Of a stretch of 64,000 bases of DNA, positions 36,921 through 56,093 are shown piece after piece. Each line of letters starts with the position of its first letter. Positions within the stretch are counted from its first letter, which is position 1. The notes under the pieces are model-generated. The model was not told the origin of the DNA. It worked only from the letters and a program-made list of their open reading frames with translations, and searched no databases. The DNA is from Capnocytophaga sputigena (lineage in GTDB: Bacteria > Bacteroidota > Bacteroidia > Flavobacteriales > Flavobacteriaceae). Location: NCBI RefSeq assembly GCF_900446695.1, contig NZ_UAVP01000008.1:248001-312000 (forward strand), read 5' to 3'. A program made the translations under genes and the position numbers.

Positions 36921-36938
36921 GAGATAAGAGGTAAGAAA
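36911..36938. repeat. GTAAGAGATAAGA repeat supplying the GH92 stop codon
   Basis: The tract GGTAAGAGATAAGAGATAAGAGGTAAGA overlaps the last GH92 codons (LGKR-stop) and runs into the intergenic space. Confidence 0.55.
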
Positions 36939-42286: not shown

Positions 42287-42288
42287 TT

Positions 42289-42309
42289 AGATAAGAGATA
42301 AGAGGTAAG
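42289..42309. repeat. GATAAGAGATAAGAGGTAAGA repeat
   Basis: This intergenic copy lies between the reductase stop and the CBS-protein start, ending 4 bases before the ATG, where a ribosome-binding site would be expected. Confidence 0.5.
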
Positions 42310-42312
42310 AAT

Positions 42313-42960
42313 ATGACAACACATTTTTTATATATAGACCCCAATACTTCGATAGAGGAAGTGAATTTGCTTTTTGAAGCCCACTCGCTTTCGGCTTTGC
42401 CCGTGTGCGAAAACAATTCTTTTATAGGGGTACTCCGCAAAGAAGCCGTGGAAGAAGCTGCTAAAGAGGCGTTAGTAAGTGATTATGAGTATGCGCTTGA
42501 ACACTATTTTATACCTTCAACGGCTACGTGGGATGCTGTGGTAGAGGCTTTTGCGCTCTATCAAACCGATATGTTACCGGTAATCAATGAGGGAGGAGAT
42601 TTTATAGGCTACTATCATTTAGATGAGTTTGTATTACAATTCATCGAAACTCCTTTTATACAAGAAGCTGGCTATGTGCTTATCTTGCAGAAAGATACTC
42701 TTAACTATTCACTTGCTGAAGTTAGCAAAATCGTAGAGGAAAATGGAGGAAAACTTTTAGGGCTTTATCTCTCTAATCGCACAGAAAACAACGTGCTTAT
42801 CACCCTAAAAATCACCACCAACCGACTCTCGGAAATACTACAACACTTCCGCCGTTATGGTTATGGTATCCTCACCGAAAAAGAAGATGACCACTACCGG
42901 AAAGAACTGAAAGACATCGCTGATTACTTTGAAAAATACTTAGACTTAGGTAACAGATAA
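42313..42960 (+). CDS. CBS-domain protein
   Basis: This 215-residue cytoplasmic protein has two CBS motifs in the first 115 residues (THFLYIDPNTSIEEVNLLF, LPVCENNSFIGVLRKE, then DMLPVINEGGDFIGYYHLDE) and an ACT-like C-terminal part (GYVLILQKDTLNYSLAEVSK ... NNVLITLKIT). CBS pairs bind adenosyl nucleotides and tune a partner's activity. The last residues (LDLGNR) and the stop overlap a repeat copy at 42951-42969. In flavobacteria this family often neighbours nadK/pdxJ-type housekeeping genes; that context is absent here. Confidence 0.8.
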   Translation: MTTHFLYIDPNTSIEEVNLLFEAHSLSALPVCENNSFIGVLRKEAVEEAAKEALVSDYEYALEHYFIPSTATWDAVVEAFALYQTDMLPVINEGGDFIGYYHLDEFVLQFIETPFIQEAGYVLILQKDTLNYSLAEVSKIVEENGGKLLGLYLSNRTENNVLITLKITTNRLSEILQHFRRYGYGILTEKEDDHYRKELKDIADYFEKYLDLGNR

Positions 42961-42969
42961 GAGATAAGA
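42951..42969. repeat. GTAACAGATAAGAGATAAGAA repeat at the CBS gene end
   Basis: This copy contains the stop codon of the CBS-domain gene and precedes the first of three paralogous barrel genes. Confidence 0.5.
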
Positions 42970-42993
42970 ATAATTTTTAACTAAATATATAGT

Positions 42994-43737
42994 ATGAAAC
43001 GTTTTTTAATTACCGTTGCTTTTTTGAGTGTTACTACATTCAGTTTTGCGCAAACCGCAATAGGGGTGAAAGTAAATACACCATTACATACTTTTAATTT
43101 TTTCAACGATCTCACCTCTAACGAAAGTTATGATATTGAGATTTATCCGCGAATTGCTGCTTTTAATTCAGGTGTATTTGCGCATTTCCAACTCGCCAAA
43201 CGTTGGGCATTACAAACAGAAGTGCTTTATCGCCGAGAAACATTGTCATTCCGTCCTAAAAATAGCACTTGGGATACCGAAGAACGCCCTTATTATGAGT
43301 TTGACTACTTAGAAATCCCTCTTATGATGCAGTTTGAGGGCAAAAAATCCGTTAGAGGATTTACACAGTTAGGTTTTTCACCCAAAATCAGTACAAGAGC
43401 TGCTTTTAGAGATAAAGGAAGTAAAGAAGAGGTGCAAGATATGAAATACTATTTTGGCACAGGACAACTACACATCAATTTCAATATAGGAGGAGGGTTG
43501 ATCGTAGAACGCCCCAGATGGTTGTTGTTCGCCGAAGCACGTTATTCAGTTAATCTCACCAAAATGGCAACGAATAGCAGTTCGCCTTATTTAAATTTCA
43601 TAGAAGCGAGAAATCATACCTTTACATTTTCGTTAGGCGCAGGCTATAAATTCTCTAAAAAGAAAAACGATACTCCTCCTACTGAAGAAATCGTAACTCC
43701 TACTGAAGAAGTAAACCAAGAACCCATAACCGAATAA
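42994..43737 (+). CDS. PorT-like outer-membrane beta-barrel, paralogue 1 of 3
   Basis: This 247-residue protein has a signal peptide (MKRFLITVAFLSVTTFSFAQ) followed by TAIGVKVN, an eight-to-ten-strand barrel (FDYLEIPLMMQFEGKKSVRGFTQLG, FTFSLGAGYKFSKKK) and a C-terminal Pro/Thr/Glu tail (PPTEEIVTPTEEV). It is of the OMP_b-brl_2/PorT type with no known specific role. It heads a tandem trio with gaps of only 18 bases containing the same ACTAAATATATTATG start context, so the three are one operon that arose by duplication. Confidence 0.82.
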   Translation: MKRFLITVAFLSVTTFSFAQTAIGVKVNTPLHTFNFFNDLTSNESYDIEIYPRIAAFNSGVFAHFQLAKRWALQTEVLYRRETLSFRPKNSTWDTEERPYYEFDYLEIPLMMQFEGKKSVRGFTQLGFSPKISTRAAFRDKGSKEEVQDMKYYFGTGQLHINFNIGGGLIVERPRWLLFAEARYSVNLTKMATNSSSPYLNFIEARNHTFTFSLGAGYKFSKKKNDTPPTEEIVTPTEEVNQEPITE

Positions 43738-43755
43738 TCTTTCACTAAATATATT

Positions 43756-44514
43756 ATGAAACGCTTTTTAACTACAATTTTATGGTTTTGCACTGCTTAC
43801 TTTGGCTTTGCGCAAACTGCGATAGGGGTAAAAGTAACTGACCCACTATCGGCTGTTAGCTTAGCAGCTCCTCTATATACAGCAACCAATGTTGATCTAA
43901 AAAACTACAATGCCTTTGTTAGCCTTGGAGGCTTTGTTCGTATTCCTCTAAAAGAACATTGGGTTTTACAAAGTGAATTGCTTTTTAAGCACGAAGCTGT
44001 GCGTTTTAGAATAGAGAATAGCAGCAAAGATTCTTATTATAGGTTTGAATATTTGGACGTGCCTTTCTTAGTACAATACGAAGGCAAGAAAGCTATTAGA
44101 GGCTTTGGTTTTGTAGGTTTTTCACCTAAAATTCTCATCACTTCTTCTTTTTATGATGACTCTAAGAGTGTTACTTACGGAGGGAGTTCGCAATTCAACA
44201 CAGTGATGATGATGGGACATATAGGAGGAGGTGTGCTATTTGAGCGCCCTAAATGGATTTACACAGTTGATGCTCGTTTTTCTACCAGCATAACAAACTT
44301 AGCTTCGGGAAGCCGTACAGAATATATCAATTTTGATAAAGCGAGAACATTTGTGTTTGGCATTTCGTTAGGTGCAGGCTATAAATTCTCTAAAAAGAAA
44401 AACAATACTCCTCCTACTGAAGAAATCGTAGCTCCTACTGAAGAGGTAGTAACTCCTACTGAAGAAGTAGTAACTCCTACTGAAGAAGTAAATAAGGAAC
44501 CTATAACCGAATAA
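43756..44514 (+). CDS. PorT-like outer-membrane beta-barrel, paralogue 2 of 3
   Basis: This 252-residue paralogue has signal peptide MKRFLTTILWFCTAYFGFAQ and the same TAIGVKV opening. The barrel core is FEYLDVPFLVQYEGKKAIRG, then GHIGGGVLFERPKWIYTVDA and ISLGAGYKFSKKK. The tail carries several in-frame copies of a 21-base unit encoding VVTPTEE at about 44427-44488, more than in paralogue 1, so its length may vary by slippage without loss of frame. The tail lies after the last strand and probably faces the periplasm. Confidence 0.82.
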   Translation: MKRFLTTILWFCTAYFGFAQTAIGVKVTDPLSAVSLAAPLYTATNVDLKNYNAFVSLGGFVRIPLKEHWVLQSELLFKHEAVRFRIENSSKDSYYRFEYLDVPFLVQYEGKKAIRGFGFVGFSPKILITSSFYDDSKSVTYGGSSQFNTVMMMGHIGGGVLFERPKWIYTVDARFSTSITNLASGSRTEYINFDKARTFVFGISLGAGYKFSKKKNNTPPTEEIVAPTEEVVTPTEEVVTPTEEVNKEPITE

Positions 44515-44532
44515 TCTCTAACTAAATATATT

Positions 44533-45330
44533 ATGAAACGCTTTTTAACTACAATTTTATGGCTTTGCGCTGCTTATTTGGGCTTTGCGCAAACCGCGAT
44601 AGGGGTGAAAATCAATAGCCCTGCAAGTACTTTTACGATTATTACTCCTATACAATCAATGGAGGGGTATAATGTGGAGTATTTTGGAAAGACAGGCGTA
44701 GTGAACTCTGGGTTATTTTTGCGAATGCCTATCAAAACTCACTTTGCTTCACAAATAGAATTGATGTACAAGCGCGAGGCAATTCCGTATCGCCCTGAAG
44801 GCTCTGATTTAAAATTGCAAGACCGCCGTCACATTCGTTTTGATTACCTAGAAATGCCTTTCTTATTGCAATTTGAGGGTAAGAAATGGTTTAGAGGATT
44901 TGGACAAATAGGATTAGCTCCTAAAGTTTTGCTTTTGGCATCGTATTCTGAAAAACAAAACAGTGAAAAGTTCAATATGACACAATATTTCAATAAAATA
45001 TTGTTTACTTTTCACGTAGGTGGAGGAGTGATGTGGGAGATACCTAAATGGATATTCACTGTTGATGCTCGTTTTTCTACGAACCTTACCCCTATCACCG
45101 ATCAAGAACACGTTCCTCATCTCTATTTTAAAGATGCTAAAAGTTACTACTTCGCTATTTCTATAGGCGCAGGCTTAAAACTTCCTAAAAACAAAAATGA
45201 AGAACCAGCTATTCAAGAGCCGGTATATCCTTCAAATGAAGAGCCCGTATACCAAGAAGTGAAAGAAGAGCCTATACCTCAAGAAGCGAAAGAAGAGGCT
45301 GCTCCTCAAGAAGTAAAAGAGGCTGAATAA
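44533..45330 (+). CDS. PorT-like outer-membrane beta-barrel, paralogue 3 of 3
   Basis: This 265-residue protein has a leader nearly identical to paralogue 2 (MKRFLTTILWLCAAYLGFAQ). The barrel diverges more (RPEGSDLKLQDRRHIRFDYL, FHVGGGVMWEIPKWIFTVDA). The tail differs in sequence but not in style: repeats of EEP.YQEVKEEPIPQEAKEE. It ends the trio; the next gene is convergent, 6 bases away, with no separate terminator visible. Confidence 0.82.
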   Translation: MKRFLTTILWLCAAYLGFAQTAIGVKINSPASTFTIITPIQSMEGYNVEYFGKTGVVNSGLFLRMPIKTHFASQIELMYKREAIPYRPEGSDLKLQDRRHIRFDYLEMPFLLQFEGKKWFRGFGQIGLAPKVLLLASYSEKQNSEKFNMTQYFNKILFTFHVGGGVMWEIPKWIFTVDARFSTNLTPITDQEHVPHLYFKDAKSYYFAISIGAGLKLPKNKNEEPAIQEPVYPSNEEPVYQEVKEEPIPQEAKEEAAPQEVKEAE

Positions 45331-45336
45331 CACTTA

Positions 45337-46056
45337 TTATCTTCCTAAAATCAGGATTTCATCATCATCTAAAAGGGTATCATTGCGGAATCGCAGAAGA
45401 ATTTGCGCAACCGTAATGGTATCTTTTTCGCAATAAGTAGCTATACGCTCAATATCACCTTCGTTGTAGAAGACATTGCGCACTTCGCTGCCATCAATAT
45501 CGTCTTTAGGGGAAGGAATGCCCAAAATATGAGCTAAGAGTTTCAGTGAAGTATAGTGTTTGTAATCGCCGAACTTCCACATTTCCATCGTATCGAGATG
45601 AGGGATTTCCCAAGGCTTTTTGCCAAAGAGTTGTAGTTTTTGCGGAATTTCTATCCCGTTGATAATCATACGGCGGGAGATATATGGAAAATCGAATTCC
45701 TTGCCGTTATGAGCGCAAAACAATTTATTAGGGCGTGAAAAATGTTCGTTTACTAATCTGCCGAAATCTTCTAACAGATTCTTTTCTTCTCCTGTGAACG
45801 AGGTAACCCTAAAGGTGCGTTGCTGATGCCGGAATGAAAAATACCCTACTGATATGCACACAATTTTTCCAAACTCAGCCCAAATACCTGCGCGGTCGTA
45901 GAACTCTTCGGCAGAGAACTCTTCCTTGCGTTGGTAACGCGTTTTTTCTTCCCAAAGCATTTGAGTTTCAGCCGACAATTCGCTGTACTGCTGGTGTAAC
46001 GGTACAGTTTCTATATCCAAAAAAAGTATGTCGTCTAAGTTGAGTTTGTGGAGCAT
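45337..46056 (-). CDS. PolB-like 3'-5' exonuclease (DnaQ fold)
   Basis: This is a 239-residue stand-alone proofreading-type exonuclease. ExoI is DILFLDIETVP (catalytic Asp/Glu), ExoII is FCAHNGKEFDFPYI, and ExoIII is ATYCEKDTITV (Tyr-x-x-x-Asp). All four acidic metal ligands are present. The family is annotated as predicted 3'-5' exonuclease related to the exonuclease domain of PolB. The start codon overlaps the trmB stop by one base (TAATG), giving translational coupling. Its biological substrate is not known. Confidence 0.88.
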   Translation of the reverse strand: MLHKLNLDDILFLDIETVPLHQQYSELSAETQMLWEEKTRYQRKEEFSAEEFYDRAGIWAEFGKIVCISVGYFSFRHQQRTFRVTSFTGEEKNLLEDFGRLVNEHFSRPNKLFCAHNGKEFDFPYISRRMIINGIEIPQKLQLFGKKPWEIPHLDTMEMWKFGDYKHYTSLKLLAHILGIPSPKDDIDGSEVRNVFYNEGDIERIATYCEKDTITVAQILLRFRNDTLLDDDEILILGR

Positions 46057-46736
46057 TACTGTTTTTTTATCTGAAAACGAATATAGGTAATGGGTTTACC
46101 TTGTTCTAAATAGAACTGTTCATAGAAGGTTTTAATTTCGGTTACTTCTGTAGGCACGCCATCGCTGTTGTAGATATTGTGATTCGCATAGAGCACTTTA
46201 TGTCCTGCTCCATGTAACAAGCCTAAGGTATAACCGTGCATAAACTCGCTATCGGTTTTGAGGTGCACATAGCCATCAGGGGCGAGGATATGCTCGTAAC
46301 GCGCGAGAAAATCGGCGTTTGTGAGGCGGTGTTTGGTGCGTTTGTATTTTATTTGCGGATCGGGGAAAGTAATCCATATCTCACTCACTTCACCAGTGGC
46401 AAAGCATTTTTCGATGAGTTCTATTTGAGTGCGGAGGAAAGCTACATTGGCAATATTTTCTTCTATAGCAGTTTTAGCTCCTCGCCAAAAGCGCGCTCCT
46501 TTGATGTCTATTCCTATGAAATTCTTCTCAGGATGGCGTTTGGCTAACCCTACTGAATACTCGCCTTTGCCACAGCCCAATTCTAAAACTATAGGGTGAT
46601 TGTTCTTGAAATAGAGTTCATTCCAACGTCCTTTATAAGGAAAAGCATCGGTGAGGACTTCCTCACGTGAGGGCTGAATTACATTGGCAAAGGTTTTATT
46701 TTCTTCGAATCGTTTGAGTTTATTTTTGCTTCCCAT
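46056..46736 (-). CDS. trmB: tRNA (guanine-N7-)-methyltransferase
   Basis: This 226-residue SAM-dependent methyltransferase forms m7G46 in tRNA variable loops. The SAM site is VLELGCGKGEYSVGLAKR, the following acidic region is NFIGIDIKGARFWRGAK, and the catalytic motif ISEIWITFPDPQIKYKRTKHRL contains the family's PDP. Length and order are normal. It is upstream of, and overlaps by one base, the exonuclease gene. Confidence 0.95.
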   Translation of the reverse strand: MGSKNKLKRFEENKTFANVIQPSREEVLTDAFPYKGRWNELYFKNNHPIVLELGCGKGEYSVGLAKRHPEKNFIGIDIKGARFWRGAKTAIEENIANVAFLRTQIELIEKCFATGEVSEIWITFPDPQIKYKRTKHRLTNADFLARYEHILAPDGYVHLKTDSEFMHGYTLGLLHGAGHKVLYANHNIYNSDGVPTEVTEIKTFYEQFYLEQGKPITYIRFQIKKQ

Positions 46737-46787
46737 AGGTAAGTGAAAAGTGAATAGTGTTAGGGCGGCAAAGATAGCAATATTTTT

Positions 46788-47747
46788 TTAATTACAGTTT
46801 TCTTCTTTGCAATGGCAATTTTCGGTATCTATTTCAAAGGTGCTGTGGGTAATACCTTCGTGAGAAAGGGTGTGTTTCAGTTCTGCTTTGATGGTCATAA
46901 ATTCTTTTAGCGTAATGCATTCTTTGAGTACCAAATGTGCTGTTAAAGCATTTTGCGCACTACTGAGCGCCCATATATGCAGGTGATGTACGCTCTCCAC
47001 CATAGGGTGTTGTTCTATCAATTGCTGAATGTGAGCTTGGTTTATATTCTGAGGAACACCGTCTAAAATGAGTTTTACACTTTCCTTTAAAAGTCCCCAA
47101 GTAGAGAAGAGAATGACAATTCCCACCATAAAACTACTGATAGGATCGGCGATATACCAACCTGTGAAGTACATAATTGCTCCTGAGACAATCACCCCTA
47201 CTGACACTAAAGCATCGAGTAGCAGGTGCAGAAAAGCCCCTTTAATATTGATATCGGTTTGCTGACCTTTATAGAAAAGAAAAGCCGATACCCCATTGAT
47301 AATCACCCCTATGAAAGCTGTAATCATAATAGCAGTTCCTGCCATTTCGGGTGGATTGGAGAGACGTTCAAAAGCTTCGATAAAGATTTTTATCACAATG
47401 TATATCAACAGTACTGCATTGATAAGTGAGGCGAGGATGGAAGCCTTTTTGTAACCATAAGTGTATAGCTGGGTAGCAGCACGGTGAGTGAGCTTCAGTC
47501 CAATGAGAGAAATCACCAAACTGGCGACATCGCTTAAATTATGACTGGCATCAGAAATAAGTGCCAGCGAATCAACTCTAAAACCTACTATAAATTCGAT
47601 AAGGGTATAGAGCAAATTCAAGCCTATACCTATATAGAAGGCGCGATTCAACGCACTTAAATCGGTTATTGTATGATGGTGGTGGTGATCGTGATGATGA
47701 TCGTGATCGTGGTGATGATCGTGATCGTGGTTGTGTGAATGTTCCAT
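46788..47747 (-). CDS. CDF-family metal cation exporter (CzcD/ZitB-like)
   Basis: This 319-residue inner-membrane cation/proton antiporter has a very His/Asp-rich N-terminal tail (residues 2-25, with about 17 His) that probably binds zinc. Six membrane helices follow, with metal-site motifs SLALISDASHNLSDV in helix II and HLLLDALVSVGV in helix V. The cytoplasmic C-terminal domain has HHLHIWALSS and ends CHCKEENCN, a possible extra metal site. Zinc efflux is most likely, with cadmium or cobalt possible. Confidence 0.92.
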   Translation of the reverse strand: MEHSHNHDHDHHHDHDHHHDHHHHHTITDLSALNRAFYIGIGLNLLYTLIEFIVGFRVDSLALISDASHNLSDVASLVISLIGLKLTHRAATQLYTYGYKKASILASLINAVLLIYIVIKIFIEAFERLSNPPEMAGTAIMITAFIGVIINGVSAFLFYKGQQTDINIKGAFLHLLLDALVSVGVIVSGAIMYFTGWYIADPISSFMVGIVILFSTWGLLKESVKLILDGVPQNINQAHIQQLIEQHPMVESVHHLHIWALSSAQNALTAHLVLKECITLKEFMTIKAELKHTLSHEGITHSTFEIDTENCHCKEENCN

Positions 47748-47760
47748 AATAGTAATTTTA

Positions 47761-47781
47761 GGTAAGAGATAAGAGGTAAGA
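47761..47781. repeat. GGTAAGAGATAAGAGGTAAGA repeat
   Basis: This copy lies between the CDF start codon and its probable promoter box (TAACTTTG, 47796-47789), so it is in the 5' untranslated region. Confidence 0.5.
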
Positions 47782-47870
47782 ATTGGGGCAAAGTTACAAA
47801 ATTATTTAGAAACAATCTCTGTTTAGAGGTGTTTTTTCATAGCCTAACCTCCGCTGGAGATGTTTTGGAG

Positions 47871-47949
47871 AATCTCAGAGAATCTTAGAGAATCTCAGAG
47901 AATCTTGGAAAATCTCGGAGGTGGGAAGGGTGGTGTAAATAGTTTTTTG
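47871..47949. repeat. five 10-bp AATCTCAGAG units plus GTGGGA tail, copy 1
   Basis: Units AATCTCAGAG, AATCTTAGAG, AATCTCAGAG, AATCTTGGAA and AATCTCGGAG run from 47871 to 47920 without gaps, then GTGGGAAGGGTGGTGTAAAT and a run of T. A shorter copy with the same tail is at 48045-48101. The whole 354-base gap 47748-48101 consists of these repeats and the palindrome between them, with no gene. Confidence 0.7.
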
Positions 47950-47952
47950 TGT

Positions 47953-48013
47953 GTAGGTATGGGCGTTTGCAAAACGCCCATACAATGTAACTAAAAATGA
48001 TTGATTATTTAGG
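47953..48013. repeat. dispersed GGGCGTTT palindrome element, copy C
   Basis: ATGGGCGTTTGCAAAACGCCCAT is a perfect palindrome followed by AAAAATGATTGATTAT, matching copies A (4849-4906) and B (16111-16213). It sits between the two copies of the 10-bp-unit repeat. Confidence 0.65.
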
Positions 48014-48044
48014 TAATCAACTGATGATTTAGGAGTTTTTGGAG

Positions 48045-48101
48045 AATCTCAGAGAATCTTGGATAATCTCGGAGGTGGGAGGGGGGTGTAAATAGTTTTT
48101 T
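48045..48101. repeat. three 10-bp AATCTCAGAG units plus GTGGGA tail, copy 2
   Basis: AATCTCAGAG, AATCTTGGAT and AATCTCGGAG are followed by GTGGGAGGGGGGTGTAAATA and a run of T that abuts the stop codon of the spanin-like gene. Confidence 0.7.
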
Positions 48102-48545
48102 CTATTTCTTTAGAATATATTTTTTGTATTGGTAATAGGCGATAGCTACTAAAATAAGTGCGATTAGCCAATAAGTTTTTGGGGTTAGCCCGAAATTGTG
48201 TTCTTTTTGTTTGAGTGATTGATGTTGGTGGAAATTCAGTACTTTTTGACGAGCTTGGTGCATTTCTTTCTGTTGCAGGCTGTCGGTGCGCTCACGCAAG
48301 TGTTTTACGTGGGTAGTGCTGTGGAGTTGCACTTGGGTATGCCCTGTGCTGTCCTTAAACGCCTCAAGTGTGAGATGTACTTCTTGTAGGCCACTGAGCC
48401 ATTCTACGGTGTGCAAGACTGCTGTTTGTTGGCGGTAGAGACTATCTATTTGCTCACGTATTTGGAGGGTTTCAGTTTGTTTTAGCTTATGTGTTTTGCA
48501 GGAGAATAGTAATAAAAAAGGCAATAAAAAGAGAATTTGTTTCAT
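48102..48545 (-). CDS. unimolecular-spanin-like lipoprotein
   Basis: This 147-residue protein has a lipobox ending in Cys16 (LLLFSC), then KTHKLKQ with no acidic surface-export motif. A long helical, Gln-rich coiled-coil-like middle (about 25-115) is followed by a single C-terminal membrane segment (YWLIALILVAIAYY, 125-138) and a Lys-rich end. Outer-membrane lipid at one end plus an inner-membrane helix at the other is the topology of phage u-spanins, which fuse the two membranes at the last step of lysis. The ATG at 48545 overlaps the endolysin stop (ATGA). The frame continues 66 codons upstream, but that is the endolysin gene in another frame. The assignment rests on topology and neighbours, not on sequence similarity. 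Confidence 0.6.
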   Translation of the reverse strand: MKQILFLLPFLLLFSCKTHKLKQTETLQIREQIDSLYRQQTAVLHTVEWLSGLQEVHLTLEAFKDSTGHTQVQLHSTTHVKHLRERTDSLQQKEMHQARQKVLNFHQHQSLKQKEHNFGLTPKTYWLIALILVAIAYYQYKKYILKK

Positions 48546-49075
48546 TTTGAGAGTTGTTTTATGATTTTTTTGAGTTGGGTTGCATAATCGGGGGCAGTGG
48601 CGTAGCCTGCACGAGCAATGGCTTCGGCGAATAAGTATGGGTCGGTTTTGACTTTTAGAGCCTCGGCATAGCGTTTGTTGTTCAAGAACAAAAGAGCGTG
48701 ATCGGTAAAGCAGGCTTCGGGAGTGGAGTATTTTTTGAACCAATCCTTTACCTTATATGTATATTTGCCATCAGTGCGCTTGGTAACGCTTAGCACTTCG
48801 GGGAATTTTTGTAATGCAGGGGTGCGCTGATAAGTTTCCCAATCACAAGAGAGCACTTCAGTAGTTACCAATAATTGTCGGTCAGAAGCGGGGATATTGG
48901 GTTTAGCTTTTACGCCAAAGAACATATTACCAGGGGCGCGTGTTCCCCAAGCACTTTCCAAGGCTGCTTGTGCCAAAATAAAGAGGTGTGAGATACCTGT
49001 TTTGCGTTCAGTTTCGATTGCATAGGGCTTGTAGGTAGCTACAAAAAGTGCGATTTGTTGTTCGTTGTTTGTCAT
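48542..49075 (-). CDS. glucosaminidase-type endolysin
   Basis: This is a 177-residue peptidoglycan hydrolase of the glucosaminidase (FlgJ/GH73-like) fold. It has GISHLFILAQAALESAWG with the catalytic Glu40, GNMFFGVKA, a central beta region and YAEALKVKTDPYLFAEAIARAGYAT near the end. No signal peptide is present, as expected for a phage endolysin released through a holin. It overlaps both neighbours by 4 bases (ATGA at 49075-49072 and 48545-48542), so the three genes are translationally coupled. Similar enzymes occur in Bacteroidota prophages. Confidence 0.85.
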   Translation of the reverse strand: MTNNEQQIALFVATYKPYAIETERKTGISHLFILAQAALESAWGTRAPGNMFFGVKAKPNIPASDRQLLVTTEVLSCDWETYQRTPALQKFPEVLSVTKRTDGKYTYKVKDWFKKYSTPEACFTDHALLFLNNKRYAEALKVKTDPYLFAEAIARAGYATAPDYATQLKKIIKQLSK

Positions 49076-49341
49076 TTTCTAAGTTGTTTTAAAAGGTTTT
49101 CGATAGAAGTTTCGAGTTCTTTGATACGTAGGTTAGCCTCTTTAAGGTCGGCAATGGCTTTGGCGTATTTTTCGCCTAAGTCATCAATCATTTCGCGATA
49201 GATGTGTATCGCTTTATCTACATTGTCTAATTCGCTGGCTTGTAGTTCCACGCGTTGTTTAGGGCGACCGAAGAGCCAGCCTGCCCATCCTGAGAGCAAA
49301 AGCCCTACAAAAGTGATGAATTGTTCTTTGAGAAGTTCCAT
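49072..49341 (-). CDS. holin-like membrane/coiled-coil protein
   Basis: This 89-residue protein has one membrane segment (residues 8-25, FITFVGLLLSGWAGWLF), a basic turn (GRPKQR) and a coiled coil to the C-terminus (KELETSIENLLKQLRK). Its size, single helix and place directly before the endolysin with an ATGA overlap fit a small holin or a holin-like spacer protein. Sequence alone does not prove hole formation. It begins the lysis cassette. Upstream lies the terminator of the DUF502 gene. Confidence 0.55.
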   Translation of the reverse strand: MELLKEQFITFVGLLLSGWAGWLFGRPKQRVELQASELDNVDKAIHIYREMIDDLGEKYAKAIADLKEANLRIKELETSIENLLKQLRK

Positions 49342-49442
49342 TTTCTTTTTGATTTATGATGCAAAATTGAGGAGTTTTGAAGAAGTGCACAAATAGTTGT
49401 AACGAGTGGTTACAAGATTGTAACAAGGGAGAAGTAGGGAAT

Positions 49443-49470
49443 AAAAAAGCGCGAGCTATGAGCTCGCGCC
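49443..49470 (-). terminator. terminator of the DUF502 gene
   Basis: GCGCGAGCT (49449-49457) and AGCTCGCGC (49461-49469) form a perfect 9-base-pair GC stem with a 3-base loop, followed on the minus transcript by six U. It also resembles the core of the 40-bp GGCGCGAGCT repeat. Confidence 0.85.
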
Positions 49471-49497
49471 TTTAATCATTAGGTATTCTTTAATGAG

Positions 49498-50079
49498 TTA
49501 TCCTTTCTTAATCGTTGTAATTCCGCCACTTAGAGCAAATTCCATCGCTTTTTGGGCAGTAAAGCCTTCGGCGGGTTTTACATTCTCGGCAGAAGTAACA
49601 ATCACCCAACCCGAAATAGCATACGAATGGGGCAAATATACGCTCACCATTCCCTCGAGATTGACAAAATCCATTGATGGCTGGGTAAGAAAACCTATGC
49701 GCCATACTTCGGGGGTTTCGTTTACACGTACCCACACTGGATTGGAGAACTTGCGTTTATCGCCTACAAATGACGCTAAGACATCTTTGATAGATGAATA
49801 GATGATTTTTACCCCAGGGATATGTGCCACCAAATAATCTAACAAACCTACCAATAGTTTCCCTAAAATGAGTCGGCTACCTATAAATCCGATGATGGCT
49901 GTGCCTAATAGGACTAATGCGAACACTAACCCTGGGTAATCTTTAGAGAGGTCGGGGACGAGGTTATCAACACTTTTGAATATCGACCAAATAATCCAAA
50001 TAGTAGCACTGAGAGGTCCTATGATAAGTATCCCTTGAAAAAAGTATTTGATAAAAGTACTAAAATAGTGTTTTTTCAT
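49498..50079 (-). CDS. DUF502 family membrane protein
   Basis: This 193-residue protein has two membrane helices near the N-terminus (YFFQGILIIGPLSATIWIIW and LVFALVLLGTAIIGFIGSRL), then a soluble beta-rich domain with the family's IPGVKIIYSSIKDVL and GMVSVYLPHSYAISG. DUF502 proteins are widespread and of unknown function. The gene stands alone with its own terminator. Confidence 0.88.
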   Translation of the reverse strand: MKKHYFSTFIKYFFQGILIIGPLSATIWIIWSIFKSVDNLVPDLSKDYPGLVFALVLLGTAIIGFIGSRLILGKLLVGLLDYLVAHIPGVKIIYSSIKDVLASFVGDKRKFSNPVWVRVNETPEVWRIGFLTQPSMDFVNLEGMVSVYLPHSYAISGWVIVTSAENVKPAEGFTAQKAMEFALSGGITTIKKG

Positions 50080-50281
50080 TGTTGTAATTTGCTGATTTTG
50101 CTAATTTAATCATTGGCTGTAATGCAAAAATAGCACTATTTTCCTAAATAGGAAAATTTTTCTTGCAAGGGAGAGTTTTTGGAGTTCTCGGAGTTTTCAG
50201 AGGTCTCTGGAGCGATTGAAGTTTTTGTAGTTGCATAAAATTAGATTGTGGATAGAATAGATTAAATTGTTTTATACAAAA

Positions 50282-50312
50282 AAAGCTGCTAAGTGGGGTA
50301 CTTAACAGCTTT
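50282..50312 (-). terminator. terminator of the nrf-ccs operon
   Basis: AAAGCTGCTAAGT and ACTTAACAGCTTT form a 13-base-pair stem with one mismatch and a short loop, 7 bases after the ccsA stop, with A/T runs on both sides. Confidence 0.8.
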
Positions 50313-50318
50313 TATTAT

Positions 50319-51113
50319 TTATCCAGAATAGGTATGTACACTCATTTGTGCCGTTGGCAAGTAGTTTACACCAAACCAGCAAACAAGGAGTAGTATAAAG
50401 GCAATTCCTACGATAAGGAAACTCTGAAAAGGTTTCTTTTCTTTGTGATTGTACTTATGGTGGAGATATACCAAATAACCAAGCCAAGTGATAAATGCCC
50501 AAGTTTCTTTAGGGTCCCACGTCCAATAGTGCCCCCACGCTTCTTTTGCCCAAAGGGCTCCAAAGAGCAATCCAAAAGTGAGAAATACATAACCTATTTT
50601 TACAAGTTGGTCGATGACAGTAAAGATTGATTGTACTTCTTGTCCTTTTTTATAGCGATAAATGCCATAGAAAGCGGTGAGTGAAGCCATCCCTAACATT
50701 GCATAAGCAAAGATATACACGATTACGTGTGGAATGAACCACACGCTCTGCAAGGCAGGCATTAAGGCTTTGTTCATTGTATCGGGGTGGGTATAGGTAA
50801 GTACTATAAATACAATCCCCATTACAGCTGAATAGCTGAGCATCCACTTTTGGCGATAGAGCCAATAGATGGCACAGCCTATGAGTCCCATAAAGAATGC
50901 GTACCAAATACGTGTTTCGGCAAGGGTGCGCAAGGGCGGACGATCTAAGTTTTGCCACAAGGCAACAATAAAGACTCCAATGGTTAGGGTAGCTACTAAA
51001 TGAGCTGTAATACTGAGGTTTCTAAGAGCTTTACTTTTACTATAGATAAGCGTTCCGGAAAGTAACCATAGGGCTACTGAAATATATGTTATAAGATTGA
51101 AATAATGCCACAT
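50319..51113 (-). CDS. ccsA: cytochrome c biogenesis protein CcsA (ResC-like)
   Basis: This 264-residue membrane protein has about eight helices. The heme-handling WWD motif is WGHYWTWDPKETWAFITWLGY, and conserved His residues in the neighbouring helices (IPHVIVYIFAY, YLHHKYN) are the expected axial ligands. With ResB it forms the system II cytochrome c synthetase that carries heme out and attaches it to CxxCH sites. It follows resB by 24 bases and ends the operon. Confidence 0.92.
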   Translation of the reverse strand: MWHYFNLITYISVALWLLSGTLIYSKSKALRNLSITAHLVATLTIGVFIVALWQNLDRPPLRTLAETRIWYAFFMGLIGCAIYWLYRQKWMLSYSAVMGIVFIVLTYTHPDTMNKALMPALQSVWFIPHVIVYIFAYAMLGMASLTAFYGIYRYKKGQEVQSIFTVIDQLVKIGYVFLTFGLLFGALWAKEAWGHYWTWDPKETWAFITWLGYLVYLHHKYNHKEKKPFQSFLIVGIAFILLLVCWFGVNYLPTAQMSVHTYSG

Positions 51114-51137
51114 AGTTTAGAAAATAGGAATTAGGAG

Positions 51138-52361
51138 TTAGGAATTAGATGTTTGTTTTTTAGTTTTTACTTCAAAGAGGAGGGCAATACCTCCGGCAAG
51201 TAGTAAGAAAATTCCTACATAAACGACAGGTAACCAAGGGTCGGAGATGAGTTCGACGACACTGAGTTCTGACCAGCGCCCCATACGTTCATCGTAACTC
51301 AATTGGTAAATGCGCCAACCACCTACGCTGATAGGGTGGTTTACTTCTATTTTTTCTTCGAGTACTTCGTTTATATGATCTTTTTGATATATCAATACAT
51401 CGGATTGGAATTTGCGTGCTTCGGCAGGTGCCATTACCAAGGTATGTTCATCATCTAAATGAATGGCACGAGGTGAGAATTGGAAGTTACCGGCTGAAAT
51501 CCAATCGGTTTTCTTTTTGTGAGTACGAAGGTCTTCTACGGTTACTTTGGCTGCATTGGTCGCACCCCACATCGTGTGATTGACATAAGTACTATCGGTA
51601 TCGGGGATTGCCTTTTCGAGGTATTGGTGAAGAGTAATTTTCCAATTCAGCAGGGTCATACTCTCACCTTGTTTTTCGAGCATAAAGCCTATAGGTTTTT
51701 CGTGAGGCAGTGCCGAGCCTGTACTATCGATAACAAATAGTTTATTAGGATAAATATCTATACTAAACTCTTTGAGTTCCATAGCGATAGGCAGTTGTAC
51801 TACGCGATTATCATCGGTAGTTGCACGCCATTCGAGTTTATCCTTATAAAGGTTCATTTTCAAGCGAATGATGTCGCCTTGCCCTAATACCCCAGCAAAC
51901 ATTGTAAGCCATAAGCCAAAGTGATTGAGGAGGAAAGGAATGTTTTTGCGTTGATAAACCATTGAGCGTTTGAGGATAGAAAACCAGAGGTTCATCAGTG
52001 CTAATACGAAAACGATACCAAAGTACCAAGTTTTGGTAAGGTCGTCTAATCCTAATTTGCCTAGAAAGCTATTTGCTACTTCTTGAGGATTCACATTGAT
52101 ACTCCCCAAGCCGATGGTGAGTATTCCAAGAGTTGCAACTGTAACAATTGCAAAAGGCGCCGAAGAAAAGCGCACGATGAAGTTTGTTTTTCTAAAGATA
52201 AAATATACAGCTGTAGTGATTACTACGAAGGCAAAGCCTTCTATCACATTGTAAGGAAAACTAAACCAACTTTTGCTGATACTTCCTAAGGTAAGTTGCA
52301 GTATCAACCCTATGATAAGGGACACACACGCAACCAAAATAGCGAAAGGATATTGTTTCAT
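51138..52361 (-). CDS. resB: cytochrome c biogenesis protein ResB (Ccs1-like)
   Basis: This 407-residue protein has three N-terminal helices (LVACVSLIIGLILQLTLG, FAFVVITTAVYFIF, FAIVTVATLGILTIGL), another (FLLNHFGLWLTMFAGVLGQGD), a large periplasmic domain and a final helix (VVYVGIFLLLAGGIALLFEV). VGGWRIYQLSYDERMGRWS is the conserved ResB C-terminal motif. It works with CcsA. Placement after nrfHA means that heme attachment capacity is made together with the nine-heme nitrite reductase system. Confidence 0.9.
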   Translation of the reverse strand: MKQYPFAILVACVSLIIGLILQLTLGSISKSWFSFPYNVIEGFAFVVITTAVYFIFRKTNFIVRFSSAPFAIVTVATLGILTIGLGSINVNPQEVANSFLGKLGLDDLTKTWYFGIVFVLALMNLWFSILKRSMVYQRKNIPFLLNHFGLWLTMFAGVLGQGDIIRLKMNLYKDKLEWRATTDDNRVVQLPIAMELKEFSIDIYPNKLFVIDSTGSALPHEKPIGFMLEKQGESMTLLNWKITLHQYLEKAIPDTDSTYVNHTMWGATNAAKVTVEDLRTHKKKTDWISAGNFQFSPRAIHLDDEHTLVMAPAEARKFQSDVLIYQKDHINEVLEEKIEVNHPISVGGWRIYQLSYDERMGRWSELSVVELISDPWLPVVYVGIFLLLAGGIALLFEVKTKKQTSNS

Positions 52362-52364
52362 TAG

Positions 52365-52388
52365 TTAGGTAAGAGATAAGAGGTAAGA
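52365..52388. repeat. GTTAGGTAAGAGATAAGAGGTAAG repeat
   Basis: This copy of the GTAAGAGATAAGA family lies between the resB start codon and the palindrome at 52391-52416. Confidence 0.5.
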
Positions 52389-52390
52389 AA

Positions 52391-52416
52391 TAGGGGCGAA
52401 TTGCCATTCGCCCCTA
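52391..52416 (-). repeat. TAGGGGCGAAT/ATTCGCCCCTA palindrome
   Basis: This is a perfect 11-base-pair inverted repeat with a 4-base loop between nrfA and resB. It could lower readthrough from nrfA into resB. A decayed copy is at 8851-8877. Confidence 0.6.
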
Positions 52417-52445
52417 CATCGTTATTTATTATTGGTGATTTGTTA

Positions 52446-53912
52446 TTATTTTTGGGTTACTAAGCGTCCTTTTTCTTTGGCTTCTTTAATCCATTTAGGA
52501 ACGATAGTTTCTAAGAATTTTTTCTTAGCAGCTTCTTCTTTAGGGATATCTAGACCAATTTCTTTTTGAGCTTTAGCTTTAGTGCTGATATCAGGCATTA
52601 CGAAAGCTGTTTTGATGTTTAGTTTTTCTTTAAGCACATCTAAATTATTTTCAGCTTGATAAGCATAGATAAGACCATCGCTAAGGAGGCGTTCAGATTC
52701 GATAGGAGCGTGGAAAGCGGCACCGTGTGAAGAGTGTACCATATCCCAACGCCATTGTGATTTGCGGATAAGTGCCAAAGTAGGTTTCATTTGTTCTTCA
52801 GTAGCACCGTTATCCCACAAGAATTTAGCTTTGAAGTGTACTTTAGCCAATTGTTTTTCGAGTTTCATACGCATACCATATACAGCATCTTGGCGATCAT
52901 ATACGTTTTTCACCAATTCTTCTTCACTTTGGCGGTGACAAGTTTGGCAACTTGCAGACACGTTACGCAATGGACTGCTGATTTGGTGATCAGAGAATTT
53001 TACAGCACCATCAGTTTTGTAAGGCATGTGGCAATCGGCACAAGAAACGCCACGTTGTCCGTGGATACCGAGTTGAGAAAGTTCATAATCAGGGTGTTGT
53101 GCTTTGAGGATAGGAGTACGGCTAAGAGAGTGAACATAGTCAGTCCAACCTTCTTTATCGTAATATTCTTCCATTTTTTCAACAGTCATTCCTTCATCCC
53201 AAGGGAAAGTAAGATATTTTTTATCACCTTTGAAGTAGTACTCTACGTGGCATTGAGCACACACGAGAGAGCGCATTTCTTGGTGAGTAGCTTTATTGAT
53301 GTCACGACCTTGACGTTTGAAAGCTTCTTGTAAAGCCAATTGTTTTACTTGTAATTTCATAGTTTTGGTATCGTGGCAAGTAGCACAACCGATAGGGTTT
53401 ACGATTTGGCTACCCCATTGATCCCAAGGAGCACTATAGTAAGTTTCAGCACCTACTTCTTTCATAAGGCGAGGCACATCAGGGCTTTTACAAGTCCAGC
53501 AAGTACCTGGTTGAGGAGAGTGGGTAGAATCGGTAGGCGCACCAGTACGGAGAATTTTGGTAACATCCTCAATAGCGTGCATGTGTCCGCGAGGAGCGTT
53601 GTATTCCTTAGAGAAAGCATAACCAGCCCAAAGGATTACCATTTCGGGGCGCAAAGCGAGCAAATCATCATCTTGACTGCTCATATACCTAGAGCGGAAT
53701 GTAGTGTCGGCAGTTGCTGCCCACGAAGCGTATTCACGAGGATAGAACGGTTCAAAGAGCTCGTTTTTGCATTCCTGATCGGGGAGGTTATTACCGCCTC
53801 TTGCGATAAACTGAGCTTCTGTAGATCTATTCATTATTGAATTAGCCAATAGTCCTAATAAAAAGGTAACTACTGCTAATAAACCTGCAATTAACCAATG
53901 TTTCTTTTTCAT
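52446..53912 (-). CDS. nrfA: cytochrome c nitrite reductase catalytic subunit
   Basis: This 488-residue periplasmic pentaheme enzyme reduces nitrite to ammonium. All five heme sites are visible: the active-site CWTCK with lysine ligand, then CATCH, CAQCH, CADCH and CQTCH. RSLVCAQCHVEYYF carries the catalytic Tyr region, and the distal HSSHGAAFH is present. The ATG at 53912 begins a signal or anchor helix (MKKKHWLIAGLLAVVTFLLG); the open frame upstream overlaps nrfH and lacks an export signal. It is 25 bases after nrfH. Confidence 0.97.
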   Translation of the reverse strand: MKKKHWLIAGLLAVVTFLLGLLANSIMNRSTEAQFIARGGNNLPDQECKNELFEPFYPREYASWAATADTTFRSRYMSSQDDDLLALRPEMVILWAGYAFSKEYNAPRGHMHAIEDVTKILRTGAPTDSTHSPQPGTCWTCKSPDVPRLMKEVGAETYYSAPWDQWGSQIVNPIGCATCHDTKTMKLQVKQLALQEAFKRQGRDINKATHQEMRSLVCAQCHVEYYFKGDKKYLTFPWDEGMTVEKMEEYYDKEGWTDYVHSLSRTPILKAQHPDYELSQLGIHGQRGVSCADCHMPYKTDGAVKFSDHQISSPLRNVSASCQTCHRQSEEELVKNVYDRQDAVYGMRMKLEKQLAKVHFKAKFLWDNGATEEQMKPTLALIRKSQWRWDMVHSSHGAAFHAPIESERLLSDGLIYAYQAENNLDVLKEKLNIKTAFVMPDISTKAKAQKEIGLDIPKEEAAKKKFLETIVPKWIKEAKEKGRLVTQK

Positions 53913-53937
53913 CGCTGTATAAATTATATTTCGTTTT

Positions 53938-54555
53938 TTAATTTGTTGATTTTTCTTTATTTTTAACCATATTATCAAGCCATTCAGGGGTATTGTTTGG
54001 CATATTACTAATAATAGGTACGGGTGAATGAGGAGCTGCATTAAGTCCGCGTACACGGCTGTGAGGTACTTCGCGGTGGCAGTCCCAGCAGAGTCGCCCG
54101 TTATCGGCGTGAGCCATTTCGGCAGTTACCTTTCCTGCTTGTACTTCACTTACCAAAGTACTATGGCAGCGGATACAGTTTTCTTGTACTACCTTTTGCC
54201 CTGGAGAGTGCATTTTAATCACTTGAGGTTCCAAGCGGAAAGTGAACATCGTGGCGTGGCGTAGACCGTCGTTCGCTTTGAAATAGTATTTGCGAAAAAC
54301 GTTGTCGTGAGGCACGTGGCAATCGTTACACACGGTATTGCGACCGTGAGAGGAGTGCATCCACGTAGCGTACTCAGGCTCCATAATATGGCAGTTCACA
54401 CACGCCTTGGGGTCGTCAGACAGATAGGAGTGCGCTTTGGATATATAAAATATGTATCCGCCAAGCCCTATCAATATCCCTACTAACGACGGAATCAAGA
54501 ATCGAAACCATCGTCCTTTTTTAGTAGATTGGGTGTTGTTATTTGTTGTCGCCAT
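53938..54555 (-). CDS. nrfH: NrfH-type tetraheme quinol dehydrogenase
   Basis: This 205-residue membrane-anchored NapC/NirT-family cytochrome has a single N-terminal helix (FLIPSLVGILIGLGGYIFYI) and four heme sites: CVNCH, CNDCH, CIRCH and CWDCH. It oxidises menaquinol and hands electrons to NrfA. It is the first gene of nrfH-nrfA-resB-ccsA and has a clear promoter with a palindrome over its -33 element. Confidence 0.95.
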   Translation of the reverse strand: MATTNNNTQSTKKGRWFRFLIPSLVGILIGLGGYIFYISKAHSYLSDDPKACVNCHIMEPEYATWMHSSHGRNTVCNDCHVPHDNVFRKYYFKANDGLRHATMFTFRLEPQVIKMHSPGQKVVQENCIRCHSTLVSEVQAGKVTAEMAHADNGRLCWDCHREVPHSRVRGLNAAPHSPVPIISNMPNNTPEWLDNMVKNKEKSTN

Positions 54556-54589
54556 TATATAAAAAATAAATTTTCGTTGTTTTTCGTTG

Positions 54590-54623
54590 CAAATATAAAA
54601 TAGTTTCCTTACATTTGCAAATG
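54590..54623 (-). promoter_or_regulatory. nrfH promoter with CATTTGCAAATG palindrome
   Basis: On the minus strand TTTG (54621-54618), 20 bases, then TATATTTG (54597-54590) is a full Bacteroidota promoter. A perfect 12-base palindrome CATTTGCAAATG (54612-54623) covers the -33 element and could be an operator for a nitrogen-oxide or redox regulator. The divergent porin gene starts at 54738. Confidence 0.65.
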
Positions 54624-54737
54624 AAAACGAAAGAATCTATATACTTTATTGTAAGTCTAAATAAGGGAAGTTTGTTTTTTATTCATTTTCAATATATTAA
54701 CATCTTTTAAATGTAAATAATTCAAAAAAATATACCG

Positions 54738-56093
54738 ATGAAAAAACATTTATTATCAATTTTTGCTTTAGGTACAGCTTTCGTTTTGTACCCTACTTTG
54801 GCAACTGCTCAAGAAGAGTTACCACCACCTCCACCAATGGAAGAAATGGCTCCACCACCACCTCCAAACGAATTTACACTATCAGCACAATTGCGTCCGC
54901 GTTTTGAGTACCGCAACGGAGCTTACAAACCTATCCAAGATGGTGAAGCACCTGCCATCCTTACTAACAATCGCGTTCGCTTGAATTTTGACTACAAGCA
55001 CACCGACCGCCTACACCTATATATATCACTACAAAATGTGAATGTATGGGGACAAGCACCTCAAATACAATCATTCGATAGAACTGGTGGTATGTCGGTT
55101 TTCGAGGCTTATGCCGAATTCCCTCTTGTTAATACCCTCAGTGCAAAAGTAGGTAGACAAGTGATTGCGCTGGACGACGACCGTATTTTCGGGTCTCTTG
55201 ATTGGCACCCTGCAGGTCGTAGTCACGATGCTGTGAGCTTGAATTGGAACGCTTGTGACCAATGGACACTCCGCAGCTTCTTTGCTTACAACCAAGGAAT
55301 TGCTTCAGGAACAATGGATGTAAACACTCCTAATGGAGTACATTTCCAAGGAGGACAAGCCTACCAACACCTTGAAGCAGTTCACTCTCACCACAAATTT
55401 AGCGAAGACCAAAAATTATCTCTCTTGTTTGCTAACTTAGGTTACCGCGTTAATAATGGTACAAACTATAATATACAAACATTTGGAGCACACTACACTG
55501 GCAAAAGTGACGATTTGAACTATAGCGCTTCTGCTTATTTACAAACTGGTAAAAATGCAAAAGGACAAGACAAGAGCGCTTATATGTTTGCAGTGAATGC
55601 AGGCTACAAGTTCTCTCCTATTTTCAGTTTAGCAGCTGGAGTAGACTACCTCAGTGGCACAGCTACTCCTTCCTCTAACACAACGGATAAAACTTTTGAT
55701 CCATTCAGTGGTACCAACCATAAGTTCTATGACTTTATGGATTATTACTATGTAGGTTTTACTCCTTCTGCAGGTTTGCTTAATCCTTACCTTACTGCTA
55801 ATGTACGCACTGGTGAGAAGAGCAACCTCAGCGCTACTTTCCACTATTTTGCACCTGCTGCTAAGTTTGAAACTGACAAAAAACACAGCAGCTATGGCAG
55901 TGAAATCGATTTGGTGTATAACCTAAAAGTACAACCTTTTATCGGACTACAATTAGGTTACTCTACTTACTTTGCTAATGATGGCACTAAAGCCCTTAAA
56001 TTTGGTAATACTTCTACTAAAACACGTGGTTACCAAGATTGGTTTTGGTGCAGCTTGAACATCAATCCTAAATCATTCTCAGTGATGTTCTAA
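54738..56093 (+). CDS. alginate-export-like outer-membrane porin
   Basis: This 451-residue barrel has a signal peptide ending ATAQ and then a proline-rich linker (PPPPPMEEMAPPPPP) before the first strand (FTLSAQLRPRFEYRNGA). VGRQVIALDDDRIFG followed by DWHPAGRSHDAVSLNW matches the alginate-export (AlgE-like) family pattern. The last strand is NPKSFSVMF. It is divergent from nrfHA, sharing a 182-base control region, so it may admit nitrite, nitrate or another respiratory substrate; that link is inferred only from position. Confidence 0.8.
   Translation: MKKHLLSIFALGTAFVLYPTLATAQEELPPPPPMEEMAPPPPPNEFTLSAQLRPRFEYRNGAYKPIQDGEAPAILTNNRVRLNFDYKHTDRLHLYISLQNVNVWGQAPQIQSFDRTGGMSVFEAYAEFPLVNTLSAKVGRQVIALDDDRIFGSLDWHPAGRSHDAVSLNWNACDQWTLRSFFAYNQGIASGTMDVNTPNGVHFQGGQAYQHLEAVHSHHKFSEDQKLSLLFANLGYRVNNGTNYNIQTFGAHYTGKSDDLNYSASAYLQTGKNAKGQDKSAYMFAVNAGYKFSPIFSLAAGVDYLSGTATPSSNTTDKTFDPFSGTNHKFYDFMDYYYVGFTPSAGLLNPYLTANVRTGEKSNLSATFHYFAPAAKFETDKKHSSYGSEIDLVYNLKVQPFIGLQLGYSTYFANDGTKALKFGNTSTKTRGYQDWFWCSLNINPKSFSVMF

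Follow-up and report, generated by a model that had tools for sequence, protein, structure and literature searches.

What is a set of genes with the look of a phage lysis module doing between ordinary genes of a bacterial chromosome? The question is raised by the window, by which we mean the whole stretch of 64,000 nucleotides that was analysed, from a Capnocytophaga genome close to C. periodontitidis. A cassette of three minus-strand genes (49341-48102) lies there between a cation-efflux gene and a DUF502 gene. We propose, with a probability of roughly 60%, that it is a phage lysis module kept by a Capnocytophaga lineage and controlled by the host, with release by lysis as its predicted outcome. 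The cassette is real, conserved, phage-derived and probably functional, and it may serve the bacteria as a means of lysing part of their own population.

A probable lysis cassette among ordinary genes

The open reading frames of the window give proteins of 89, 177 and 147 residues for gene 1 (49072..49341), gene 2 (48542..49075) and gene 3 (48102..48545), all on the minus strand. Both joins are 4-base ATGA overlaps, and the coordinates thereby bear out a preliminary description that was made from the sequence alone. Such 4-base overlaps are also present in the nearest named record found, C. periodontitidis p1a2 (read as G011), whose endolysin is 88% identical. The downstream neighbour and syntenic anchor is a czcD-type cation efflux gene (46788..47747, minus strand; assigned by Pfam PF01545 and synteny), and the upstream neighbour, outside the cassette, is a DUF502 gene (49498..50079, minus strand; PF04367).

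Nine genes of the window were checked against Pfam, and the neighbours with matches (Methyltransf_4, Cation_efflux, DUF502, Cytochrom_C_asm, ResB and NapC/NirT) are ordinary ones. No capsid, tail or integrase genes were seen by eye among the open reading frames between 42000 and 56000. Pfam and this reading therefore agree with the earlier statement that housekeeping genes flank the cassette and that phage structural genes are absent, and neither revealed the structural, packaging and integration genes that mark an intact prophage. The further claim, that the trio is a complete phage lysis module, is supported by gene content, predicted topology and relatedness to phage lysis genes.

Conservation in the genus

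With the czcD-type neighbour as query, 17 matches were obtained among 20 Capnocytophaga genomes, that in G018 being only 39% identical. The cassette stands directly upstream of this gene in five of the 20, namely our own genome (G000), G011, G009, G014 and G001. The other 12 genomes with a czcD match host no cassette within 1.5 kb (about 0.6 kb for G016), and the three genomes that are not matched have no full-length endolysin relative. The carriers fall into one group with G010 and G008, as seen in trees of DUF502 (99/99, without G001) and czcD (93/88). Since G010 and G008 are members of the carrier group without the cassette at this place, it is dispensable. G010 has a lone gene of 187 codons upstream of czcD.

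The cassette frames are open in all five species, with the endolysin and spanin forming one frame in G014. Between our genome and G011, dN/dS for genes 1-3 is 0.074, 0.133 and 0.134 by the NG86 method and 0.064, 0.135 and 0.309 by YN00. Changes at the three codon positions number 3/4/25, 15/8/47 and 20/19/56 for genes 1-3, with most at third positions, a departure from evenness at p 5e-7, 9e-9 and 8e-7, respectively. These are signs of purifying selection on the cassette between the two closest species. Codon-position bias and conservation in other species argue that the frames are more than chance.

One alternative explanation is that the cassette is a plain prophage remnant that is intact by luck and has no present function. 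In its favour, all cassette parts resemble phage proteins, the genus has prophages with related lysis genes, and no cassette was found in 15 of the 20 genomes, two of them from the carrier group. It is hard to square with frames that are open in five species, with changes between two of these that are biased by codon position and give dN/dS values far below 1, and with a promoter and operator region, described below, that is kept in our genome and in G011. We regard it as improbable, and the cassette is not a fresh remnant. The preliminary description had named, among the findings that would count against it, homologues that always lie within intact prophages together with a remnant here that has inactivating changes. 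This was not encountered: the same cassette stands beside the czcD-type gene in five of the 20 genomes, and its frames are open, with dN/dS of 0.06-0.31 between the two closest species. Its suggestion of domestication gains support from the single place in five genomes, the open frames and the signs of purifying selection.

The endolysin and the spanin-like lipoprotein

Gene 2 matches the Pfam Glucosaminidase family (PF01832, E 1.5e-26) and a PHROG endolysin family (E 1.2e-41). Its Glu40 lies within an ALESAWG stretch that is, by eye, common to its relatives. In the hydropathy profile the N-terminus is not hydrophobic; the highest peak, a weak one of 0.85, lies inside the protein. The protein has the features of a GH73-type phage endolysin, namely a Glucosaminidase domain, a conserved Glu and no signal peptide; Pfam, hydropathy and the comparison by eye are at one with the initial call of a signal-less glucosaminidase with Glu40.

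Gene 3 begins with a hydrophobic stretch and a lipobox that ends at Cys16 (by eye and from hydropathy), and a C-terminal hydrophobic stretch peaks at residues 118-136 with a hydropathy of 1.66, as expected from the earlier claim of a lipobox at one end and a membrane helix at the other. The structure model is helical, with a helix at 122-146, at a mean pLDDT of 55.8, which is low confidence; the periplasmic domain of T1 gp11 is predicted to be beta-rich. Cys16 is the sole cysteine. In a survey from 2018, none of 58 u-spanins has a periplasmic cysteine (PMC6139136). Gene 3 therefore shares with T1 gp11-type u-spanins a lipoprotein signal, a C-terminal helix, the lack of a periplasmic cysteine and membership of a lysis cassette, given its ATGA overlap with the endolysin gene, and by its predicted topology we call it u-spanin-like. 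Its mature N-terminus, CKTHKLKQ, does not carry the K-(D/E)2 signal that a C. canimorsus study gives for surface export of lipoproteins (PMC5080379), in line with the earlier observation that a surface-export motif is lacking.

By dN/dS gene 3 is the least constrained of the three genes. As a query it finds matches in only four of the 20 genomes, and the copies in the G009 and G001 cassettes escape it, which argues that it evolves fast; family searches with gene 3 and with the 187-aa protein gave nothing above a cut-off. The lipobox and the C-terminal helix are nevertheless present in all five carriers, in G014 inside the frame fused to the endolysin, and the absence of lipidation that had been named as a ground for rejection is countered by a predicted lipobox kept in five species. 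The G014 frame (L134:9168-10154) is itself of note: it runs uninterrupted for 328 aa with the signal and lipobox internal, and there is no ATG, GTG or TTG just before the lipoprotein signal. It encodes either a fused endolysin-spanin or a spanin with a rare start codon.

How common is this arrangement elsewhere? Of the 59 Bacteroidota genome and viral loci that a simple script could score, 31 have a protein with a lipobox and a C-terminal helix no more than 400 bases downstream of the endolysin. The G011 cassette itself is one of the 31, a 67-aa frame that may be chance is counted twice, and several of the viral loci duplicate genome loci. The set comprised 66 loci, of which seven (L033, L037, L042, L043, L058, L080 and L090) have no scored endolysin frame; for L139, L140 and L142 the reading covered the lysis genes, as these stand in the shorter loci L022, L004 and L026. 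Published work reports that Bacteroidetes phages exclusively use u-spanins (PMC12596118) and that u-spanins are annotated in flavobacterial phages (PMC8776804). The 2018 survey states that physiological and biochemical data on u-spanins are lacking (PMC6139136).

The 89-residue holin candidate

Gene 1 has a single hydrophobic stretch at residues 7-25, followed by RPKQR; the stretch is weak, with a hydropathy peak of 1.35. An AlphaFold2 model is one helix over residues 2-88 (mean pLDDT 80.8, lower in the membrane part at 62-74), and it concurs with hydropathy that this is a one-helix protein, as first described. The positive residues after the hydrophobic stretch would place the coiled coil in the cytoplasm; this and the weakness of the stretch count against the proposed model. 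The predicted membrane helix is found in all five carrier species; a small protein without membrane insertion, another outcome that would have told against the first description, was not what we saw. A holin is expected to be a small membrane protein encoded beside an endolysin, and gene 1, with its 89 residues, one hydrophobic stretch and ATGA overlap, has this form.

Similarity searches give more distant clues. In Pfam there was no match above cut-off to a curated holin family, with XhlA at E 0.06 only. The best PHROG matches are weak (E 0.0024 and 0.0047) and are to Rz-like spanins, which have in common with gene 1 a membrane helix followed by a coiled coil. Across twelve diverged relatives the motif ELDNVDKA is invariant. 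Gene 1 also matches a crAss-like 'lysis regulatory protein/holin' in four phages, at 25-30% identity and E 2e-4 to 4e-3; eight of the nine records hit carry this annotation, which was given by the depositors, and the ninth is hypothetical. Two distant 89-aa relatives used as queries found no phage record.

The neighbourhoods of viral relatives are a further source of information. Relatives of gene 1 are encoded in 20 viral loci, which are not independent, as L209-L211 and L218-L220 are near-copies. The relative adjoins a wall enzyme in 12 of the 20 (L209-L211, L213-L221). By Pfam these enzymes are phage lysozymes (L209, L216), an M15 peptidase (L214) and an amidase (L221); by eye, those of L210, L211, L213, L215 and L217 are of the same kinds, and those of L218-L220 look like GH19, the one tested having no Pfam match. 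A lipobox and C-terminal-helix protein lies within about 1.5 kb in nine of the 20 (L213-L221), in L213 with another gene standing between. The other eight have the relative at a different place or on a truncated contig: L202-L206 carry it among tail genes, L207 and L208 by a capsid-like gene, and in L212 a CHAP enzyme is some 2.4 kb away.

Within the family, gene 1 matches were found in eight of the 397 genomes searched, our own and G010 included. Among the six others, L229 follows the order of the window, with gene 1, then an enzyme that is CHAP-like by eye, then a spanin-like gene; in most of the rest the neighbours are tail or capsid-like genes. Tail genes also surround the 89-aa relative in the closest prophages (L132, L135) and in the viral loci L203-L205, where some 4-6 kb separate it from the endolysin and a holin role is therefore not evident. 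From the viral neighbourhoods and the weak crAss-like similarity we take gene 1 to be a phage protein with frequent ties to lysis and a candidate for the holin, a role that we infer from gene neighbourhood and weak similarity. The 89-aa family would then be a holin candidate common to many Bacteroidota phages.

Probable origin from a prophage late operon

A good starting point for the history of the cassette is the operon of G009 and G001, where the order is the 187-aa gene, the 89-aa gene, the endolysin, the spanin and then czcD. Prophage L135 of G010, labelled Mu-like by eye, encodes relatives of the 187-aa, 89-aa and endolysin proteins at 52%, 67% and 64% identity. These and a spanin-like gene, which was matched on position and topology alone, share a strand and follow the order of that operon, and between them lie genes that by eye are sheath-, tube-, tape-measure-, baseplate- and fibre-like. 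With tail genes between the lysis genes of L135, the simplest reading of the cassette's origin is that a late operon of a phage has collapsed. In the order of events that the gene order suggests, deletion would have reduced a prophage late operon to four genes; in our genome, G011 and G014 a further reduction may have left the three lysis genes at the czcD place, two of them as one frame in G014. The cassette would thus have been kept from a contractile-tailed prophage after its structural genes were deleted, and then put under host control.

The endolysin phylogeny bears on whether this occurred once. The best trees do not group the five orphan endolysins, so a single origin is not proven, and one clade is not rejected (p-AU 0.387). 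Three of the five group with head-gene clusters (94/78 and 83/90 in two trees), which may be long-branch pull. One endolysin tree holds 53 of the 66 loci plus 16 Capnocytophaga rows; the seven unscored loci are absent from it, and L031, L032, L040, L050, L053 and L054 were left out by hand.

The 187-aa family (L157:9485-10048 and many other loci of the genus) is found in 14 of the 20 genomes, with up to eight matches per genome. It has no Pfam match over cut-off and also occurs inside a contractile-tailed prophage. A separate compact set of holin-like, endolysin and spanin genes is found in G008 (L145:8817-10282), where the surroundings are sparse and a gene of the 187-aa type is close by.

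Predicted promoter, operator and terminator

Bacteroidota promoters have a consensus -7 box, TAnnTTTG, and a -33 TTG. Upstream of gene 1 we find by eye, on the minus strand, a -7-like box CAATTTTG (49362..49369; similar in G011 and G014) and, 20 bases upstream of it, a -33-like TTG (49390..49392). The -33-like box is directly preceded by an operator-like repeat, GTTACAATCTTGTAACCACTCGTTACAAC (49396..49424, minus strand). A GC-rich inverted repeat with a run of T on the minus strand, seen by eye in the gap between the DUF502 gene and the cassette (49449..49469) and also in G011, is likely the DUF502 terminator, so the cassette would be its own transcription unit.

The 29-base repeat GTTACAANNNTGTAACNNNNNGTTACAAC stands just upstream of the predicted -33/-7 promoter in our genome and in G011, and with three changes in G014. 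Allowing up to three mismatches, operator-like repeats occur at three places in our own genome, and a reversed control gave none. A longer pattern has seven matches in three of the 20 genus genomes (three in ours, three in G011 and one in G014); its control gave none. The three sites correspond in our genome and G011: one lies ahead of the cassette, one ahead of a 187-aa gene and one ahead of SusC, which is followed by SusD (assigned in our genome by Pfam). The last of these, at G000:C10:218774-218802 (L158:8775), lies before a SusC/SusD operon in both genomes.

Looser repeats, with 3-6 changes, precede 187-aa genes of G009 (two), G001 and G014, though forms with at least four changes can fit the other strand at that place too and prove little alone. 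By eye, the L135 copy has the -7 region in common and the repeats are absent, and the G010 copy beside czcD has no clear repeat. The repeat units are spaced 10-11 bases apart, and the left pair also reads as a palindrome; a spacing of 10-11 bases is that of PhoB/OmpR-type sites. We read the shared sites as host-side rewiring by a putative regulator. Paralogy of the 187-aa promoters could explain part of the sharing, but not SusC.

A working model and its relatives

How might such a cassette work? A signal sensed by a putative regulator that binds the GTTAC repeats would cause the operon to be expressed in some cells. The 89-aa protein would permeabilise the inner membrane, the signal-less glucosaminidase could then reach the wall and cut it, and the lipoprotein with its membrane helix would join the inner and outer membranes as a unimolecular spanin. 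The cells would then lyse in a controlled way and release cytoplasmic contents, as lytic type 10 secretion systems do. Holin action, lysis, regulation and cargo release are all steps that we infer.

The name type 10 secretion system is used for holin, endolysin and spanin clusters that lie outside phages, and those of Yersinia and Serratia are reported to release cargo through lysis of specialised cells (PMC10847048). Other papers place the Yersinia cassette under a PhoB-like regulator (PMC10101115) and report spanin-less Salmonella versions as non-lytic (PMC13284979). Such systems are described in Serratia, Yersinia, Salmonella and Clostridioides (PMC10847048, PMC13284979). Among the matches listed there was no report of a Bacteroidota lysis cassette or type 10 system, and most subscription papers lay outside the literature covered.

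Like Serratia ChiWXYZ and Yersinia YenLC/ALC, the Capnocytophaga cassette has predicted holin, endolysin and spanin genes outside a phage. Unlike them it has a Bacteroidota host, a GH73 enzyme and one u-spanin-like gene in place of two spanins, and its gene 1 has no weighty match to a curated holin family. A non-phage location, a hydrolase and an operator-like site are in place and the holin is putative; neither a cargo nor a regulator was found, in contrast to the type 10 systems. The 187-aa protein and SusCD share an operator-like site with the cassette, and nothing marks either as cargo. On paper, by analogy, the cassette could work like the lytic type 10 systems.

A bolder version of the model, which we hold as a tentative and rather doubtful proposal, is that this is the first type-10-like system in Bacteroidota, in which a host operator that also controls SusCD lets a nutrient or surface signal burst part of the population so that contents are shared. 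If the type-10-like reading is true, one u-spanin does the work of two spanins. A conserved small cassette with its own control and a one-protein spanin would offer a simple setting in which to study how u-spanins act and to ask if lysis is deliberate in oral Capnocytophaga.

Phage relatives provide two further comparisons. Modules with u-spanins in Bacteroidota phages also have an endolysin followed by a lipobox and C-terminal-helix protein, whereas the Capnocytophaga cassette is isolated in the chromosome, at one place in five species. The crAss-like 'lysis regulatory protein/holin', matched by gene 1, has an annotated L,D-carboxypeptidase/transpeptidase next to it in one and one gene on in the other of the two phages examined; it differs in its phage genome, its different enzyme and a function given by the depositors' annotation.

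Lysis genes may also be retained without killing. A module domesticated for wall upkeep or for the tuning of vesicle release would resemble DLP12 of E. coli K-12, for which such non-killing roles are reported and where an operon of holin, endolysin and spanin genes is retained and proposed to be domesticated (PMC7918800). The gene content is similar, and the weak membrane helix of gene 1 fits a non-killing module. DLP12, however, has two spanins and is a defective prophage, while at the Capnocytophaga locus no other prophage gene was seen (42000-56000); nothing found points to a non-lytic role, and the spanin-like topology is kept. We consider this explanation as unlikely as that of a functionless remnant.

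Partner systems elsewhere in the genome

A host-controlled lysis cassette need not act alone: it might supply lysis to a release system whose parts are scattered, for instance a tailocin or gene transfer agent with its genes elsewhere in the genome. Other Capnocytophaga keep head-like gene clusters with an endolysin and a spanin (L143, L146 and L147), and the gp25 family, found in 11 of the 20 genomes, is matched in 5/5 carriers versus 6/15 others. Yet the capsid-like protein of the head-gene clusters is unmatched in the five carriers. The one gp25 match of our genome is on another contig, in a region that is type VI secretion-like by eye, and the copies L178 (G011) and L179 (G001) are beside no recognised tail genes; these three regions were read, and L180-L183 (G009, two in G014, a second copy in G011) were left out. 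We therefore think a scattered system very improbable.

With capsid unmatched in carriers and gp25 beside no recognised tail genes in the three regions read, a tailocin, another contractile system or a gene transfer agent was rejected as partner. The preliminary description had raised a link with a tailocin, a toxin or vesicles. Nothing was found in its support: no released cargo was found for the cassette, and the gp25 gene of our genome is in the type VI-like region. An intact or freshly decayed prophage at the locus is rejected on the ordinary neighbours between 42000 and 56000, open frames, dN/dS and synteny.

Some minor observations deserve mention. The head-like clusters (L143:5637-10792, L146:6108-14507 and L147:8705-13390, from G007, G012 and G013) have scaffold-, decoration-, capsid- and connector-like genes (names by eye) with an endolysin, a spanin and ordinary genes beside them; in L146 two other genes lie between endolysin and spanin. 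No portal, terminase or tail genes were recognised within roughly 4.5 kb either side of the endolysin. Close relatives of the capsid (73-100%) are found only in G007, G012 and G013 of the 20 genomes, and remote relatives in prophage-like places of G004, G008, G012 and G013. These clusters are possibly a second domesticated element. In our genome, L176 and L177 (G000:C1:8000-46000) are by eye a type VI secretion locus, in which a gene of 630-636 aa occurs three times, nearly identical over the residues shown.

Within the window, three tandem related secreted proteins are encoded at 42994-45330; they start with MKRFL and have QTAIGVK in common, and C. periodontitidis has four copies. A recurring intergenic repeat rich in GAGAATCT was found by eye and from matches at 47861-47930, 48040-48090 and 36906-36937, and thus stands near the 3′ end of the cassette as well as elsewhere.
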